A DNA stretch of 64,000 nucleotides from Brucellaceae bacterium (GTDB lineage: Bacteria; Pseudomonadota; Alphaproteobacteria; Rhizobiales; Rhizobiaceae), in contig JACKJV010000004.1 in NCBI GenBank assembly GCA_020637775.1, positions 233,200-297,199 of the forward strand, in the 5' to 3' direction. The number at the start of each line of letters is the position of its first letter. The stretch's first letter is position 1. Below, one piece after another: positions 38,851 through 54,469 of this stretch. The notes beneath the pieces were generated by a model. It was not told the DNA's origin and ran no database searches. It saw only the letters and a program-made list of their open reading frames with translations. The translations under genes were made by a program, and so were the position numbers.

Positions 38851-38896
38851 AAAAAACAAGAAAGAAAAGTGGAGGCTTCTGTTGCCAGGCGCCTCC
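38851..38896 (-). terminator. Intrinsic terminator of the tmRNA gene
   Basis: On the minus strand GGAGGC (38896-38891) pairs with GCCTCC (38876-38871), followed by a long T-rich run down to about 38851. It ends the ssrA transcript before sspB. Confidence 0.7.
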
Positions 38897-39165
38897 GGGC
38901 CCCGCCTGACGGGGCTAACCGTCAGGACTTAGATCGAAGCAGTCGCACCGCCATTAGGCAGCGAGACGAGCCTCAGCATAGTTGTCGTTGGCAACTATAA
39001 TTGTGACCCGATAACGGTGGTATCATGCCGAGCGAAAGTCCGATCTTTACACCCTCGTCGATCCTGTTTCGCCCCCATCAGAAAATGCCGCGACCGGCAT
39101 CTTCTGGTGGAGGCGCCGGGTACCGCCCCCGGGTCCGAATGGCTTATTACATCGGCCGTTTATCG
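38897..39165 (-). ncRNA. ssrA: tmRNA (ssrA), circularly permuted two-piece form
   Basis: On the minus strand the acceptor piece comes first: an encoded CCA ends at 39105, preceded by A and CGCCUCC, and by a T-arm with CCGGG/CCCGG around GGCGGUA. The coding piece starts at 39076 with GGGGGCG, which pairs with CGCCUCC to complete the acceptor stem (seven pairs, one G-U). A 28-base spacer lies between. The tag frame, 38992 down to 38957, reads ANDNYAEARLAA followed by TAA at 38956-38954. A hairpin pairs 38905-38912 with 38919-38926. The 5' end near 39165 is approximate. It rescues stalled ribosomes and tags their products for ClpXP. Confidence 0.9.
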
Positions 39166-39433
39166 CCATAGTCAGACAAGCTGACCGCCCAGATATAGGC
39201 ATGACGCGGCGGAAAAGAAAGGGGGCGGCGGCAGGAAAGCGGCGCGAAACCGGCGGCTTGTGTATTCGCCTTTACCTGCTTGGCTACTTTGACTTTGTTG
39301 CTTGCGGGATTGACTTGCGGGAGCCGGATTGTAGCCTCTGATCTTGTCAGGCCTGCCAGACTGGCAGAATCGACATGCAGGAAACGGGGACAGCCGCTGT
39401 CGGCTTTTCGGTGCGCCAAAGGGGAGAAAAACC

Positions 39434-48235: not shown

Positions 48236-50308
48236 TCAGCGGCGGGACCGGAAATCCCGGATAAGGCTGTTACCCTTCCTGCCATCACCGTCCTGCAAGT
48301 CCGGCTCCGGCGCGGGCGCGTTCGTCCTCGGTTTCCGGGTGCCATCGCCGTCATTTGGCCGGAAGCCAAGGCGGGCATCGTTTCGCCATTTGGTGCTGTC
48401 CCTTTCGACTCCGGCAGGATCGAACCGCTCCTGAGGGAAACCCCTGCTGGACGCGATGCCGCCCGAGGGCGAAGGGCGCGCCGGAGGCGGCACCGTTTCC
48501 CTGAGACCCCGTCGGTCGTCACCTGCGTTCAAACGTGTGGTGACAGCGGCGAGGAGGGCCTCGCGATCGAAGGCACCGGCCGATTGTGCCGGCGCATCAA
48601 ACAGTTCCGTGGAAAAATCATCGGCCTCACAATCGGCCATGTTGCGCATCCTGCGCAGGACATCCGGAAGGGAGATTTCGGTATGTCCGGCTTGCAGCCT
48701 GGCCTGGTGTTCGTAGATATGCGCCCCGGGGAGATCCTTCTTTGCGATCGTTTCGAACATCATGCGCATGGGTGACTGGAACGCTTCACCAAAGGCAATG
48801 CATTCCCGGTTGGCGACCGATGAAAGGAAGTTCGTCAGCGAACGTGCCGCGCCCGTGATCGCCAGCTTGATGATGGCCTGATCGTTTTCGTTGCCGAGAC
48901 GCATGGCAAAGATCGTGTTGCACTGGGACAGGATGGTCGAATCCAGTTCGCCTGGCCGTTGGGTCACGACGCCCAGATAAACGCCGTATTTGCGGCCTTC
49001 CTTCGCAATGCGTGCGATTGCCTGGCGGGTGGGCCAGAAGCCGCTTTCGTTGTGCGCCGGTATGTAGCGATGGGCTTCCTCACATACGACAAGGGTTTGC
49101 AGGCCGCCATCCGAGTTCAGCGCCAGGTCGAAGGCCATACGGCAGAAGACCGAAACAACCGAATTCACCACCTCGGAAGGCAGGTTCGACATATCGAATA
49201 CGCAGATCGGCTTGCCGTTTTGCGGCACACGGAAAACGTGGCTGAGAATGACCGGCATCGTGTCGCTGACAGTCTTTGCGCCGAACATGAACCGGAAGCG
49301 CGGATCGTTCAACAGCGATTCCAGCCGGTTCCGCAGCGCGCGAAGATGAGGCCGGTCAGCCTTGCCATCCAGTTGGCCCACCCGCTCGTCAAGAAGTTGC
49401 AGCAGGTCGACCATGCGGTAGGGAACGGGCGTGTCGGCCGTCAGCGCCGTAACCTCCCGGTCCTTTTTCAGCATTGACGGTGATGCGGCATTGCCTTCGC
49501 CGCGGCGAAACCGCTCCTTGGCGAGGGGAATGAGATCGCGCAAGGCGTCTATCTCGTTCGGGATCGCAGTGCGTCCGCGAAAGATGACTTCCGCGAACTC
49601 CTCAAGGCGGAACATCCAAAAGGGAAGATCAAGCCGGTTGGCATCGACCGTGATCGCCTTGTCCGCGAATGCGGTGGTGAATTCGTTATGCGGATCAAGA
49701 AGCAGAACGCGAATATCCGGCCGTTTCTCCACAACCTTGCGCAGCAGCAGGGTGACCGCCGTCGACTTGCCGACGCCTGTCGTGCCCACGACCGCGAAAT
49801 GGCGCGCCAGCAGTTTGTCGATATCGATCAGCGCGGGAATGCTGCGCTCCTGCGTCAACTCACCGATCGCAACGGCGTTGGGCGCCACATTGTCATAGAT
49901 CGCTTTCAGGTCGCTCGCGCGGATGCGATGTGCAATCGCACCCATGAAGGGATAGTTCGCGATGCCGGTCGAGAACTGAAGCTGTCCGTCACTATCCGCA
50001 GAAACCTGCCCCACAAGTTCGACATGGACATGAATGGTGTTCTTCGTCTCGCCGTGCCATGCCTTGCCGGGAACATCGACGTGGAAGATCAGGCCGACAA
50101 GGCGTGAATCCCCCACCCTGATCGAAATCATCTGCCCGACGGCCCAATAATCGTCAGAGCCTGCCGCCTGCTTGCCAGCTTCGGCGGCAATGATTGCCCT
50201 TTCTCCATCACAGCCGATGACATGCCCTTCCGTCCTGTTTCGAACGAGTGGCATTTTCGGTTCCTTGTCCTGGAAAGCTGGTGCGCCGCCGGCAACAACG
50301 TCATTCAT
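48236..50308 (-). CDS. HerA-like (DUF87) hexameric ATPase
   Basis: A 690-residue ATPase of the HerA/FtsK superfamily. A beta-barrel-type N-terminal domain (VIGCDGERAIIAAEAGK) precedes the Walker A site FAVVGTTGVGKSTAVTLLL, Walker B TLVVCEEAHRYIP and a trans-acting Arg region VTQRPGELDSTILSQCNT. The C-terminus (last about 100 residues) is disordered and basic/proline-rich. The ATG at 50308 has GGGGA upstream; the ATG at 50338 adds ten residues. Related proteins act as DNA translocases with nucleases or as defence ATPases; no NurA-type nuclease or Sir2 partner is adjacent. Role unknown. Confidence 0.85.
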   Translation of the reverse strand: MNDVVAGGAPAFQDKEPKMPLVRNRTEGHVIGCDGERAIIAAEAGKQAAGSDDYWAVGQMISIRVGDSRLVGLIFHVDVPGKAWHGETKNTIHVHVELVGQVSADSDGQLQFSTGIANYPFMGAIAHRIRASDLKAIYDNVAPNAVAIGELTQERSIPALIDIDKLLARHFAVVGTTGVGKSTAVTLLLRKVVEKRPDIRVLLLDPHNEFTTAFADKAITVDANRLDLPFWMFRLEEFAEVIFRGRTAIPNEIDALRDLIPLAKERFRRGEGNAASPSMLKKDREVTALTADTPVPYRMVDLLQLLDERVGQLDGKADRPHLRALRNRLESLLNDPRFRFMFGAKTVSDTMPVILSHVFRVPQNGKPICVFDMSNLPSEVVNSVVSVFCRMAFDLALNSDGGLQTLVVCEEAHRYIPAHNESGFWPTRQAIARIAKEGRKYGVYLGVVTQRPGELDSTILSQCNTIFAMRLGNENDQAIIKLAITGAARSLTNFLSSVANRECIAFGEAFQSPMRMMFETIAKKDLPGAHIYEHQARLQAGHTEISLPDVLRRMRNMADCEADDFSTELFDAPAQSAGAFDREALLAAVTTRLNAGDDRRGLRETVPPPARPSPSGGIASSRGFPQERFDPAGVERDSTKWRNDARLGFRPNDGDGTRKPRTNAPAPEPDLQDGDGRKGNSLIRDFRSRR

Positions 50309-50410
50309 TCCGTTTCCCCGATTTTTCCGCGAAAGCATATGGCCAAGAGGTTAAGGCCTTGTGCACCACCGGCAGCCATAATCCGTTGGTCGTTGATCGC
50401 AAAAGAGCGG

Positions 50411-50439
50411 TTGACGCCCATGCAGTCTCAAGCATAAAT
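50411..50439 (+). promoter_or_regulatory. Predicted promoter of the ilvB operon
   Basis: TTGACG (50411-50416) and ATAAAT (50434-50439) with a 17-base spacer form a good sigma-70 match. Transcription should begin near 50446-50447, at or next to the leader peptide ATG at 50447. Confidence 0.6.
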
Positions 50440-50446
50440 ATCAGCC

Positions 50447-50503
50447 ATGAAAACACGGACGAACATTCTCGTAGTACGTTTGCGCATGGGCAGGAGGGCG
50501 TAA
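50447..50503 (+). CDS. Predicted ilv leader peptide with Ile-Leu-Val-Val
   Basis: An 18-codon frame, MKTRTNILVVRLRMGRRA, that ends with TAA at 50501. Four consecutive codons (50465-50476) encode isoleucine, leucine, valine, valine, exactly the end products of the pathway encoded by the downstream ilvB and ilvN. No Shine-Dalgarno sequence is visible and the promoter places the transcript start at or next to the ATG, so the peptide is probably translated leaderless. The frame overlaps the hairpins of the attenuator. Known parallel: attenuator leader peptides of ilv operons in enterobacteria and the leaderless trpL of Rhizobiales. The identity as a control peptide is inferred. Confidence 0.72.
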   Translation: MKTRTNILVVRLRMGRRA

Positions 50504-50560
50504 CCCTCCGGCGACAGCCACCCATGCGCATCACCAGGCCCTCCCAAGGGCCTTTTTTAT
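50481..50560 (+). promoter_or_regulatory. Transcription attenuator of the ilvB operon
   Basis: A perfect 10-bp stem (50481-50490 with 50521-50530) encloses an inner hairpin GGAGGG/CCCTCC (50493-50498 with 50504-50509). It is followed by a terminator hairpin (50536-50553) with a T-run. GGAGGG can also pair with CCCTCC at 50539-50544, inside the terminator, giving an antiterminator alternative. The leader peptide codons for Ile, Leu, Val, Val lie just before the first strand, so a stalled ribosome would cover 50481-50490 and shift pairing. Exact mechanism needs testing. Confidence 0.7.
50536..50559 (+). terminator. Attenuator terminator before ilvB
   Basis: AGGCCCT (50536-50542) and AGGGCCT (50547-50553) form a 7-bp stem with a four-base loop, followed by TTTTTTAT. 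It stands 68 bases before ilvB, so unless it is bypassed ilvB is not transcribed. Confidence 0.8.
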
Positions 50561-50620
50561 TGGCCGGATTAGAGCTAAACGACCAGCCGCTGCTGGAGAA
50601 ACGAAGAGACGGGACTGACC

Positions 50621-52408
50621 ATGGCACAGGAAAATGAAACGGGCGCCGGACGTGAAATGACGGGCGCCGAAATGGTTTTGCAGGCAATGGCCGACAACGG
50701 CGTGGAGCACGTTTTCGGATATCCCGGCGGCGCCGTTCTCCCGATCTATGACGAGATCTTCCAGCAGGAGAAGATCCAGCACATCCTCGTTCGTCACGAG
50801 CAGGGGGCCGGTCACGCTGCCGAGGGCTATGCCCGCTCGACCGGCAAGCCGGGCGTTGCACTGGTCACCTCCGGCCCGGGGGCTACCAACATGGTCACTC
50901 CGCTGCAGGACGCGCTGATGGATTCCATCCCGCTCGTCTGCATCACGGGCCAGGTGCCGACGTCGCTCATCGGTTCCGACGGTTTCCAGGAATGCGATAC
51001 GGTGGGTATCACGCGGCCTTGTACGAAGCACAATTGGCTGGTGAAGGACGTGAACGACTTGCCGCGCGTCCTGCATGAGGCCTTCAAGGTGGCCACCAGC
51101 GGCAGGCCCGGTCCCGTCGTCATCGATATTCCCAAGGATGTCCAGTTCGCCACAGGCCGCTACACGCCGCCGCAACAGATTTCCCGACCGAGCTACCAGC
51201 CACGGGTGCAGGGCGACCGCGAGCAGATCAAGAAGGCTGTCGAGCTCATGGCGTCGGCCAGGAAACCCGTCATCTATTCGGGTGGCGGTGTCATCAATGC
51301 CGGTACCGAGGCCTGTCACCTGCTGCGCGAACTGGTCGATCTGACTGGCTTTCCGATCACCTCGACGCTGATGGGCCTTGGCGCCTATCCGGCTTCCGGT
51401 GAACACTGGCTGGGCATGCTGGGGATGCACGGCACCTATGAGGCCAACATGGCCATGCATGATTGCGACGTGATGGTTTGCATCGGCGCGCGCTTCGATG
51501 ACCGCATCACGGGCCGTCTTGATGCGTTTTCGCCCAACTCCAAGCGTATCCACATCGATATCGACGTTTCCCAGATCAACAAGAATGTTCACGTCGACAT
51601 TCCCATCATCGGCGATGCGGGACGAATCCTTGAGGACATGGTCCGGCTGTGGAGGGCGACCGCGCGGGCCGACCGCGAAGCGCTGAAACCCTGGAACGAG
51701 CAGATTGCGAAGTGGAAGGCGCGCAACAGCCTGGCCTATACTACGAACGATACGGTCATCATGCCACAATATGCCATCCAGCGGCTCTATGAACTGACCA
51801 AGGATCGCGACACCTATATCACAACGGAGGTCGGCCAGCACCAGATGTGGGCGGCCCAGTTCTACGGCTTCGAGAAGCCGAACCGCTGGATGACGTCCGG
51901 CGGTCTCGGCACCATGGGCTATGGCCTGCCCGCAGCGCTCGGGGTCCAGATCGCTCATCCGGATGCGCTGGTCATCGATATCGGTGGCGATGCGTCCGTC
52001 CAGATGACGATGCAGGAGATCTCGACAGCGGTGCAGTACGGTGCGCCGATCAAGATCTTCATCATGAACAACCACTACATGGGCATGGTTCGCCAATGGC
52101 AGCAGTTGCTGCATGGAAACCGCCTGTCCCATTCCTATTCCGAGGCGCTGCCGGATTTCGTCAGGCTTGCAGAGGCTTACGGCGCTCACGGCATCCGTTG
52201 CTCCAGGCCGGGCGATCTCGATGACGCGATCCAGGAGATGATCGATGTGAAGAAGCCGGTCATCTTCGATTGCGAAGTCGCCAATCTGGCAAATTGCTTT
52301 CCGATGATTCCGTCCGGCAAGGCGCATAACGAAATGCTTCTGCCGGATGAAGCCACGGACGAGGCGGTTGCCAATGCCATCGGCGCGGAAGGCAAGGCGC
52401 TGGTGTAA
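50621..52408 (+). CDS. ilvB: Acetolactate synthase large subunit
   Basis: Thiamine-diphosphate enzyme making acetolactate and acetohydroxybutyrate, first common step for Val, Leu and Ile. 595 residues. The catalytic glutamate is in VRHEQGAGHAAEGYARSTGK, the FAD/TPP-binding domain has GDASVQMTMQEI and the ThDP region KIFIMNNHYMGMVRQWQ. The gene lies right after the ilv attenuator. Its partner ilvN is separated by two unrelated genes, a lipoprotein and an exporter. Confidence 0.96.
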   Translation: MAQENETGAGREMTGAEMVLQAMADNGVEHVFGYPGGAVLPIYDEIFQQEKIQHILVRHEQGAGHAAEGYARSTGKPGVALVTSGPGATNMVTPLQDALMDSIPLVCITGQVPTSLIGSDGFQECDTVGITRPCTKHNWLVKDVNDLPRVLHEAFKVATSGRPGPVVIDIPKDVQFATGRYTPPQQISRPSYQPRVQGDREQIKKAVELMASARKPVIYSGGGVINAGTEACHLLRELVDLTGFPITSTLMGLGAYPASGEHWLGMLGMHGTYEANMAMHDCDVMVCIGARFDDRITGRLDAFSPNSKRIHIDIDVSQINKNVHVDIPIIGDAGRILEDMVRLWRATARADREALKPWNEQIAKWKARNSLAYTTNDTVIMPQYAIQRLYELTKDRDTYITTEVGQHQMWAAQFYGFEKPNRWMTSGGLGTMGYGLPAALGVQIAHPDALVIDIGGDASVQMTMQEISTAVQYGAPIKIFIMNNHYMGMVRQWQQLLHGNRLSHSYSEALPDFVRLAEAYGAHGIRCSRPGDLDDAIQEMIDVKKPVIFDCEVANLANCFPMIPSGKAHNEMLLPDEATDEAVANAIGAEGKALV

Positions 52409-52415
52409 CTTGGCT

Positions 52416-52979
52416 ATGCGCGGCTGGCTCCTATCCATGCTGCTGCTGGCGCTTGGCGCCTGCCAGACGGCAGGCGGCAACAGCACGTCAGCCACACTGG
52501 AATCGGCACGGGCGGAAGCCATGAACGCGGCTCCAGAGCGGCAAGGCGTCGCGTCGCTCCAGCCGACGCCGGGAGGCGTCGTCGCCGAGAGGGCGGGCAA
52601 GCCTGTCATACGGGACAGCAGCGATCCTGTCCTCACCGCTGTCGTGAGAATCGGGCGGCTGCAAAAGGCGCAGGGAACGCTTGCGGCCATGGATGCCGTT
52701 TTCCAGTGCTATGAGCGTGCACAGGAACCGCGTGCCACGATTGCCGATGCAAAGGTCTGCGCCGCGCAGGATTTCGCCGTGTCGAAGAGCGTTGAAGAGG
52801 GGCGGGCGCAACCGGCCGGACGGCAGGCCGATGCGCGAAGCGCCATCATTTCCCGCAGGGCAGCGCAACGGATCGGCGCGCTGATGCAGCTCAAAGGCAT
52901 GAACCAGGCCGAGTTCGACCGGTTCGGCCTGTACCTGCATCAGGTCGTGAAGCCGGCACACATTCGAGCCATGTCATGA
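52416..52979 (+). CDS. Hypothetical lipoprotein in the ilv operon
   Basis: A 187-residue protein with a lipoprotein signal: MRGWLLSMLLLALGACQTAGG, where LGAC is the lipobox and the Cys is at residue 17. The mature part has a low-complexity start, then an Ala/Arg/Gln-rich alpha-helical body (RAAQRIGALMQLKGMNQAEFDRFGLYLHQ). I do not recognise a family. The start at 52416 fits a lipoprotein and is preferred to the frame beginning at 52347. It is seven bases after ilvB and overlaps the next gene by four, so it is cotranscribed. Confidence 0.7.
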   Translation: MRGWLLSMLLLALGACQTAGGNSTSATLESARAEAMNAAPERQGVASLQPTPGGVVAERAGKPVIRDSSDPVLTAVVRIGRLQKAQGTLAAMDAVFQCYERAQEPRATIADAKVCAAQDFAVSKSVEEGRAQPAGRQADARSAIISRRAAQRIGALMQLKGMNQAEFDRFGLYLHQVVKPAHIRAMS

Positions 52980-53884
52980 CATCAAGGGCACTCCCCGGAT
53001 GGATCGACTACGGTCTCCTGCTTCTGCTCGCTGCTTTCTGGGGCGGTTCGTTCGCACTCATCAAGCAGACGGTTGGCGACTACCCGCCCGCCTTCATGAG
53101 CATGGTGCGCCTGGCGATCGCAGGCGTGGTCATGCTTTGTATCGCGCTGTTCTTGCGGGAGCGGATTCAATGGTCTGCGCGGACAGCCTGGATGCTTCTT
53201 CTGATCGGGATTTTCGGCAATTCGCTGCCTTTCAGCCTGATTGCGTGGGGGCAGCAAGTGGTCGATGCGAGCCTCGCCTCCATCCTGATGGGCATCATGC
53301 CACTGGCCACGCTGCTGCTGGCGCATTTCTTTACCGGGGGCGATGAGCCGCTCTCGGCTGGCAAGGTCGTTGGCGCAATCATCGGATTGGCCGGGCTTGC
53401 CATACTCGTCGGGCCATCCGTCCTGTACCGGCTGGGCGATGACGGTGTGCGGCAATTGGCCATTGTCGGCGCGGCGATTTCCTACGGGATCAATGCGGTT
53501 CTGACCAAGTCCATGCTCCACCAGCCGCGCAGGGCTGCCGCGGCGGCGCTGCTTCTGGCGGGGGCGCTGACGCTTTTTCCGGTCTCGCTCCTATCGGAAG
53601 ACTGGTCAGCGATAGAGCCGGGCAGCGCAAGCACGACGGTAGTTGTCCTGTTGGCCCTGTTTCCGACGGCCATGGCGTCCTTGCTTGTCTTCATCGTGCT
53701 TGAGCGCCAGGGCGCAGGCTTCTTCAGCAATGTCAACTTTCTGGTGCCGCTGTTCGGCATTGTCTGGGCTGTCGCCCTTCTGGGGGAAGCGCTCGATCCG
53801 CGGGCTTTGACCGCGCTCGGCGTCATTCTCACCGGTCTTGTCATCGCGCGCCAATCGGCGCAAAAACCATCACGTGTCGCCTGA
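52976..53884 (+). CDS. EamA/DMT-family transporter
   Basis: A 302-residue membrane protein with about ten hydrophobic helices and two EamA repeats (YGLLLLLAAFWGGSFALIKQT and later AAISYGINAVLTKSM). Family members export amino acids or metabolites; a role in exporting surplus branched-chain amino acids or intermediates is only suggested by the location between ilvB and ilvN. Starts within the lipoprotein stop (ATGA). Confidence 0.82.
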   Translation: MTSRALPGWIDYGLLLLLAAFWGGSFALIKQTVGDYPPAFMSMVRLAIAGVVMLCIALFLRERIQWSARTAWMLLLIGIFGNSLPFSLIAWGQQVVDASLASILMGIMPLATLLLAHFFTGGDEPLSAGKVVGAIIGLAGLAILVGPSVLYRLGDDGVRQLAIVGAAISYGINAVLTKSMLHQPRRAAAAALLLAGALTLFPVSLLSEDWSAIEPGSASTTVVVLLALFPTAMASLLVFIVLERQGAGFFSNVNFLVPLFGIVWAVALLGEALDPRALTALGVILTGLVIARQSAQKPSRVA

Positions 53885-53896
53885 AGGATAACGATC

Positions 53897-54469
53897 ATGA
53901 ACGCGCAATTGCAGCCAACCGGTTCCGCCTACTTCATCGAGAAGAGCATGGAAAAGCCGGAAACCCATACGCTTTCGGTGCTGGTGGATAACGAGCCGGG
54001 CGTGCTTGCACGGGTGATCGGCCTGTTTTCCGGGCGTGGCTACAATATCGACAGCCTGACCGTCTCTGAAACAGAACACGAGCGGCATCGTTCCCGCATC
54101 ACGATCGTGACGACGGGGACGCCGCATGTCCTGGACCAGATCAAGGCGCAACTGGAACGGATCGTGCCGGTGCACCGGGTGGTCGATCTCACGGTTCGGG
54201 CGCGTGAACTGGGCAATGACAAGCCGGTGGAGCGGGAGCTTGCACTTATCAAGGTTGCCGGCGCCGGCGACAAGCGGGTGGAGGCGCTTCGCCTGGCAGA
54301 CGCTTTCCGCGCATCCGTGATCGACGCGAATGTCGGGCATTTCATTTTTGAGATTACCGGCAAACCCTCCAAAATCGATCAGTTCATCGCCATCATGGCA
54401 CCGCTTGGCCTGATTGAAGTGTGCCGAACCGGCATTGCGGCGCTCAATCGTGGCGATCAGGGAATGTAG
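53897..54469 (+). CDS. ilvN: Acetolactate synthase small (regulatory) subunit
   Basis: ACT-domain protein of 190 residues that gives IlvB feedback control by valine. THTLSVLVDNEPGVLARVIGLFSGRGYNIDSL is the ACT core, split here as HTLSVLVDNEPGVLARV and IGLFSGRGYNIDSLT. The second half, with RELALIKVAGAGDKRVEALRLADAFR, is the C-terminal domain of IlvN/IlvH. It follows the exporter after 12 bases and ends the ilvB-lipoprotein-exporter-ilvN unit. Confidence 0.93.
   Translation: MNAQLQPTGSAYFIEKSMEKPETHTLSVLVDNEPGVLARVIGLFSGRGYNIDSLTVSETEHERHRSRITIVTTGTPHVLDQIKAQLERIVPVHRVVDLTVRARELGNDKPVERELALIKVAGAGDKRVEALRLADAFRASVIDANVGHFIFEITGKPSKIDQFIAIMAPLGLIEVCRTGIAALNRGDQGM

Follow-up and report, generated by a model that had tools for sequence, protein, structure and literature searches.

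Atu_C8 RNAs of Rhizobiales as putative, probably leaderless ilvIH attenuators that recur before a Bcr/CflA-type transporter

Attenuation of ilvIH in alphaproteobacteria is said to have been predicted in the abstract of Vitreschak et al. 2004, and Wilms et al. 2012 is reportedly the source of the RNA named Atu_C8. Here we analyze a 64-kb stretch of DNA from a Brucellaceae bacterium (contig JACKJV010000004.1; the whole stretch is called the window), in which an Atu_C8-like RNA with a small open reading frame (ORF) precedes the acetolactate synthase (ALS) gene ilvI. An alphaproteobacterial ilvB leader peptide is mentioned as previously described in Corbino 2005, an 'ilvIH cis regulatory' element of Sinorhizobium meliloti was listed in Valverde 2008, both with Vitreschak 2004 as their source, and a Caulobacter ilv leader attenuator was shown in PMC4117421. 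Attenuation of ilvIH in this class of bacteria has already been published, and an earlier note on this DNA, made from the sequence alone, went too far in presenting the locus as a new ilv counterpart of known attenuators. In PMC1273637 and PMC2573895, the alphaproteobacterial ilvIH/ilvB attenuator is cited with the same operon, regulatory class and leader peptide as found here; the Caulobacter crescentus ilv attenuator (PMC4117421) also has a tandem Ile/Val leader coding sequence before acetolactate synthase. What seems to be new are the Atu_C8-type copies before a family of major facilitator superfamily (MFS) transporters, of which we have seen no earlier description. In the literature searched, which most subscription papers lie outside, no statement was found that identifies the Rfam family RF02502 (Atu_C8) with the ilvIH attenuator, describes its leader as leaderless or places it before an MFS transporter. 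The Agrobacterium and S. meliloti papers searched for the term contain no mention of ilv, and a literature search on leader peptide, attenuation, valine and MFS gave nothing on a transporter of this group.

We consider it very likely that the window element belongs to the Atu_C8 family and controls the acetolactate synthase genes through ribosome-mediated attenuation of their transcription; attenuation is proposed because of the anatomy (ORF, codon register, stems and terminator) together with its conservation. All parts lie on the forward strand. The −35 hexamer TTGACG (50411..50416), a good match that starts 36 nt before the leader ATG, is followed after a 17-bp spacer by the proposed −10 element ATAAAT (50434..50439), a weak match to the consensus. 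The leader peptide ORF MKTRTNILVVRLRMGRRA (50447..50503), predicted to be leaderless, has 18 codons between ATG 50447 and TAA 50501-50503 and includes the Ile-Leu-Val-Val sensing codons ATT CTC GTA GTA (50465..50476), with 8 codons from the last Val to the stop. Strand A of a long stem, TGCGCATGGG (50481..50490), falls within the ORF and forms a perfect 10-bp stem with strand A', CCCATGCGCA (50521..50530). Enclosed by this stem are the inner hairpin B:B' (50493..50509; GGAGGG 50493-50498 with CCCTCC 50504-50509), which carries the stop codon in its loop, and a small hairpin GGC-GACA-GCC (50510..50519), seen in the fold and missing from the 96-sequence consensus structure described below. An intrinsic terminator follows (50536..50558), with the stem AGGCCCT-CCCA-AGGGCCT at 50536-50553 and T's to 50558; it sits between the leader ORF and the structural gene, as in an attenuator. 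The gene under its putative control is ilvI/ilvB, the acetolactate synthase large subunit with three thiamine pyrophosphate (TPP)-enzyme domains (50621..52408), and the small subunit gene ilvH/ilvN lies farther on (53897..54469). The start codon, the 18-codon frame with its four sensing codons, the 10-bp stem, the GGAGGG hairpin and the T-run terminator had all been pointed out in the earlier note and are borne out by the sequence, by the folding of the leader (z −5.1 against shuffles, with 0 of 200 shuffles as good) and by the Rfam match.

That match spans the whole attenuator RNA (50449..50569): RF02502, "Rhizobiales sRNA Atu_C8", is found once in the window, with 97.7 bits against a gathering cut-off of 50, an E-value of 4.9e-20 and model positions 1-122 of 122. 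Model position 1 falls on the last base of the leader ATG, which suggests that the RNA on which the family was founded was recorded with its 5' end at the start codon. Two genome samples, both centred on the genome of locus L071, were scanned for the family. The family-level sample has it in 381 of 394 genomes (374 above the cut-off) and the order-level sample in 161 of 297 (49 above the cut-off), with 0 of 14 controls in each case. Rfam types this full-length match as an sRNA gene, whereas its anatomy speaks for an ilvIH attenuator that acts in cis and contains a small ORF, a reading drawn from sequence. Were the RNA a stand-alone, trans-acting sRNA, as the Rfam type 'Gene; sRNA' implies, its location before ilvI and its small ORF would be incidental. 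Such a role has a dual-function precedent in rnTrpL/peTrpL of S. meliloti, whose terminated product is an sRNA. That system, however, corresponds to the trp attenuator, and its trans roles were demonstrated for S. meliloti. A purely incidental ORF is very improbable here, given that the in-frame sensing codons are conserved, their register to the stop is fixed and all 80 relatives have the element in front of ilvI; a trans role beside attenuation may still exist. The suggestion that a terminated leader might double as a small RNA, also made in the earlier note, fits the listing of Atu_C8 as an sRNA gene.

Relatives were collected by a protein scan with ilvI, and the best 80 of at least 595 loci (77-85% identical, nearly all Rhizobiales) were used. 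An ATG-started leader ORF with at least three consecutive Ile, Leu or Val codons lies upstream of ilvI in all 80; the leader search was restricted to candidates with an R-M-G-like motif and with TTGAC 20-45 nt upstream, a restriction that cost none of the loci. The end of a terminator, GCC plus a T-run, occurs at the expected site in 79 of the 80 relatives. The exception, L014, is missing the RNA from the leader stop to the 3' arm of the terminator and counts against the proposed attenuator, although the gap is possibly an artefact since the contig is metagenome-assembled. L014 was left out, so that the counts below refer to 79 relatives plus the window (80 sequences). Despite an N-terminal part of variable length, exactly 8 codons separate the branched-chain run from the stop in 79 of 80. 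The run ends with a Val codon in 79 of 79 (GTG in 48, GTA in 31), and at its front positions Ile and Leu interchange. The reading of this single locus as an ilv attenuator whose leader peptide holds branched-chain codons and whose geometry is leaderless is thus supported and extends to the 80 relatives; the alignment of related genomes that had been proposed as a check shows the branched-chain run, A:A' and B:B' to be conserved.

The distance between the start of TTGAC and the ATG is narrowly confined in the 80 sequences, at 35 nt in one, 36 in 7, 37 in 51 and 38 in 21. With usual promoter spacing, 35-38 nt from the start of the −35 element to the ATG leaves 0-3 nt of 5' untranslated region (UTR), so that leaderless translation is the natural reading. 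None of the 80 sequences has GGAG, GAGG or AGGA at −18 to −4 of the leader ATG, in keeping with the missing ribosome-binding site reported from the window. C occupies position −1 in 76 and position −2 in 74 of the 80, and the A of the ATG is thus usually the first purine after position −3. Together these features support a leader peptide that is leaderless or nearly so, as judged from the sequence. A class of 171 leaderless transcripts, all with AUG, is reported from S. meliloti (PMC3616915). The promoter proposed in the earlier note stands as to its −35 element, with TTGAC 35-38 nt before the ATG throughout, but its −10 element does less well. ATAAAT agrees with TATAAT at 3 of 6 positions only, and a strict consensus promoter scan did not report the leader promoter; both points tell against the proposed start. 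A leader peptide translated from a short 5' UTR of non-Shine-Dalgarno type, or from an upstream start, would agree with this uncertain placing of the −10 element. It would also agree with more distant ilv leaders such as L109, L111 and L113 that have GGAG-type sites with GTG or ATG starts, from which it follows that leadered versions of the attenuator exist. For the window and its relatives we regard such a start as unlikely in view of the narrow TTGAC-ATG distance and the lack of a Shine-Dalgarno 4-mer in 80 of 80, and of the C's conserved immediately before the ATG. A leaderless start remains our preferred reading. TTGAC about 36 nt upstream is also found in eight more distant ilv leaders (L099-L101, L103, L105-L108). 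Judged by eye, the distant-relative ilvIH attenuators L102, L104, L109-L113 and L118-L121 have Shine-Dalgarno-like sites, often with GTG starts.

The RNA structure was examined in an alignment of 96 distinct sequences, left after duplicates were taken out of 99 (80 ilvIH leaders including the window, 13 MFS-linked copies and 6 copies linked to a second ALS). The eight outer pairs of A:A' have no broken cell in the 96 rows, and both sides have changed in 2 rows at one pair. At five of the six pairs of B:B', changes on both sides were counted in 37, 35, 15, 2 and 2 of the 96 rows. From these patterns A:A' and B:B' look like real RNA structures. Among 15 more distant ilv leaders, a long stem of different sequence again occupies the position of A:A' and starts two to three codons past the last Val; these stems come from single minimum-energy folds judged by eye, with no statistic attached. 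The gap between the end of A' and the terminator amounts to a few nucleotides in the ilvIH type and to 5 nt in the window.

In a classical three-way switch, GGAGGG of strand B would act as an antiterminator by pairing with CCCTCC of the terminator, as the earlier note had proposed. The six-base complementarity between 50493-50498 and 50539-50544 does exist in the window, and across the alignment 43 of 96 sequences can form at least five of the six pairs, a number that none of 500 permutations reached (mean 30.8, highest 40). However, six of six pairs are formed in 1 of 96 sequences, the window alone. One base on, the same threshold is reached by 40 of 96 against a permutation mean of 40.3, and shared descent can cause the five-of-six excess, related sequences having both strands in common. 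In addition, a perfect partner of GGAGGG lies closer by, at 50504-50509, and the two pair in the window folds whenever both are exposed. With a perfect match in the window alone and a mixed five-of-six result, the pairing of GGAGGG with the terminator (B:C) was demoted, and a switch built on it seems quite improbable.

Ribosome-mediated attenuation was also examined by folding with the ribosome-covered RNA removed at successive positions, using the full RNA (9 sequences) and partly transcribed RNA (80 sequences). The outcome weighs against the proposed mechanism. In the full RNA the terminator has a probability near 1 at any ribosome position in most of the 9 sequences, with exceptions in L002 (0.03 and 0.81 with 0 or 6 nt covered) and L029 (0.33 at one position). 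Before the 3' arm of the terminator is made, the number of sequences with a 5' arm sequestered at a probability above 0.5 never exceeds 24 of 80, whatever the ribosome position; for a ribosome at codons 7 to 10 it is 0, 4, 7 and 13 of 80. No stall-specific or clear conserved competing helix was found in the ilvIH type by this equilibrium folding, which is blind to a kinetic one.

The mechanism that we propose would begin with transcription starting at, or no more than about 3 nt from, ATG 50447. Ribosomes would load on the leaderless 5' end and read the 18-codon peptide behind the advancing RNA polymerase. A ribosome at the stop codon would cover A and B, and one at the last Val codon would overlap the first few bases of A. 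With charged Ile, Leu and Val tRNAs in ample supply, the ribosome would reach the stop codon and mask both strands, so that the polymerase would halt at the terminator (50536-50558) and release an RNA of roughly 110 nt. When Val (or Ile or Leu) is short, the ribosome would stall at 50465-50476 and leave A partly or wholly free, the A:A' stem and the inner hairpins would form, and transcription would read through into ilvI. As a stall at the first sensing codons would expose A, the A:A' stem would be formed mainly under starvation.

Twenty-three distinct genomes contain two RF02502 matches (19 in the family-level and 8 in the order-level sample, 4 shared). After exclusion of G645, one of whose matches is a contig-end fragment, 22 were classified. 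The second copy directly precedes a Bcr/CflA-type MFS transporter in 13 (L116, L117, L156, L158, L160, L168, L176, L178, L180, L182, L097, L098 and L166) and an ABC transporter in one (L162). In the remaining 8 it precedes another acetolactate synthase (L085, L115, L163, L171, L169, L173 and tandem pairs in G227 and G264, in which the ilvIH copy was not assigned). The ORFs of L169 and L173 (379 and 390 aa) have the N- and C-terminal TPP-enzyme domains and no recognisable middle one. Among 19 tabulated second-copy leaders, 18 have TTGAC 36-37 nt upstream and none has a Shine-Dalgarno 4-mer. The MFS-linked leaders show the leaderless geometry in 12 of 13 and a valine-rich run in most; the L166 copy is degenerate, scores below the cut-off (E 8e-4) and has no TTGAC at the usual place.

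An element tree of 43 rows intermixes the MFS-linked and second-ALS-linked copies and groups L085 with L180 and L243 (support 100/99, from a bootstrap that had not settled). From promoter to start codon, the element before the second ALS of R. leguminosarum and that before the MFS transporter of R. etli IE4803 agree in 168 of 203 alignment columns, whereas the flanks of the same pair agree at 119 of 243 and 119 of 240, and the two R. leguminosarum copies at 148 of 210. It therefore seems that different genes have come under the same regulatory cassette.

Orthologues of the L116 transporter (E ≤ 1e-92) were found in 17 of 394 and 15 of 297 genomes, making 30 distinct loci. Upstream of these lie an RF02502-type leader in 13 (the same 13 MFS-linked second copies), a second leader type in 9, a TPP riboswitch in one and nothing recognised in 7. 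The NCBIfam model efflux_Bcr_CflA scores above its cut-off for L097, L098, L247 and L244 and below it for L116, L117 and L243 (163-173 against 200.9). The transporter also occurs in 23 plasmid records, 11 of which were examined. RF02502 lies upstream in 6 (R. gallicum R602sp, R. etli 8C-3, R. lusitanum 629, Phyllobacterium A18/5-2, Rhizobium BG4 and R. etli IE4803), a TPP riboswitch in one (A. tumefaciens Sta004 pAt2), the second type in 2 (Burkholderia arboris and Roseobacter denitrificans OCh114) and nothing in 2 (Pseudomonas hygromyciniae and Robbsia andropogonis). Named records with an RF02502 leader before the MFS transporter are L237-L241 and L243, R. gallicum R602sp being L237; the leader frame of L243 continues beyond the usual stop. 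A class-level sample queried with the Roseobacter transporter gave 19 loci in 18 of 376 genomes, preceded by RF02502 in one, the second type in 9 and nothing in 9. Orthologues with the second type or a TPP riboswitch belong to other Alphaproteobacteria and a Burkholderia, with TPP in two cases (L187, 1238-1353, 74.4 bits; L244, 2324-2440).

One script was applied to all 53 close and distant loci, calling a leader-sized ORF with at least three Ile, Leu or Val codons and a hairpin terminator behind it. It called 22 of the 30 close orthologues and 0 of 23 distant paralogues. Without the Ile/Leu/Val condition the number of calls is 23, including L228, which was not counted by eye, and the lists by script and by eye may differ. 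A general link between Bcr/CflA pumps and attenuators was considered and rejected: the 23 distant paralogues (L191-L213) have no leader ORF with a terminator within 400 nt, and some run of five T's occurs in 4 of them.

The second leader type, first recognised by eye, comprises 20 loci (L186, L190, L223, L224, L229-L231, L233, L236, L245, L247-L254, L257 and L259). Its ORF of 15-19 codons contains branched-chain residues, mostly as a valine run (lacking in L252 and L253), and its letters are strongly conserved. In most of these loci the leader ORF is followed by CCATGCGCCCCCGA...TCGGGGGC and T's, from which L190 departs. None of the 13 loci scanned gave an Rfam match at the gathering cut-off. 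A Shine-Dalgarno-like 4-mer (GGAG, GAGG, AGGA, AAGG or GAGA) lies upstream in 13 of the 20 and is lacking in 7, so that the description as Shine-Dalgarno-led is valid for most, not all. A conserved GGCGC in the leader can pair with GCGCC, the last three bases of which open the terminator stem; this pairing, which could serve as an antiterminator, was read off the alignment of 20, for which the automatic consensus gives the terminator alone. In 7 of the 9 folded sequences, the 5' arm of the terminator is sequestered with a probability of 0.33-0.50 while the ribosome occupies the first one or two codons of the run and of 0.01-0.22 when it stands at the stop, but at the last codon of the run the value drops to 0.02-0.05 in 6 of these 7; L186 and L190 show no clean pattern. 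In these models the folding of the second type is weakly compatible with ordinary attenuation.

Other features of the window concern the neighborhood of the operon. Two ORFs separate the acetolactate synthase subunits (52347-53884), one without a Pfam match and the other an EamA transporter. A gene for a HerA-like ATPase (DUF87; 48236-50338, reverse strand) is divergent from the attenuator. An alphaproteobacterial tmRNA (38868-39224, reverse strand, 309 bits), which the permuted tmRNA model matches too, lies elsewhere in the window.

If the attenuator is as proposed, a curated RNA family would gain a role: the covariance model called an sRNA would stand for an ilvIH attenuator whose small ORF is probably leaderless, and rhizobial 'sRNA' matches could therefore be re-annotated. 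The occurrence of the same attenuator in apparently leaderless and Shine-Dalgarno-led forms would offer a natural comparison for attenuation without a ribosome-binding site. Greater interest than in the window copy lies in the wider family. We think it more probable than not that Atu_C8 is a portable attenuator responding to branched-chain (mainly valine) starvation, leaderless promoter included, which has been placed before ilvIH, a second ALS and, repeatedly, the MFS group, and that the transporter is switched on when ALS output fails. Because the leaders would sense valine or TPP, the ALS cofactor, a 'multidrug' transporter behind them would turn on upon ALS failure. A transporter group annotated as 'multidrug efflux' would thereby gain a specific physiological signal, valine shortage, which suggests a role in the export of an ALS-linked metabolite or inhibitor, or in an uptake that relieves the shortage.
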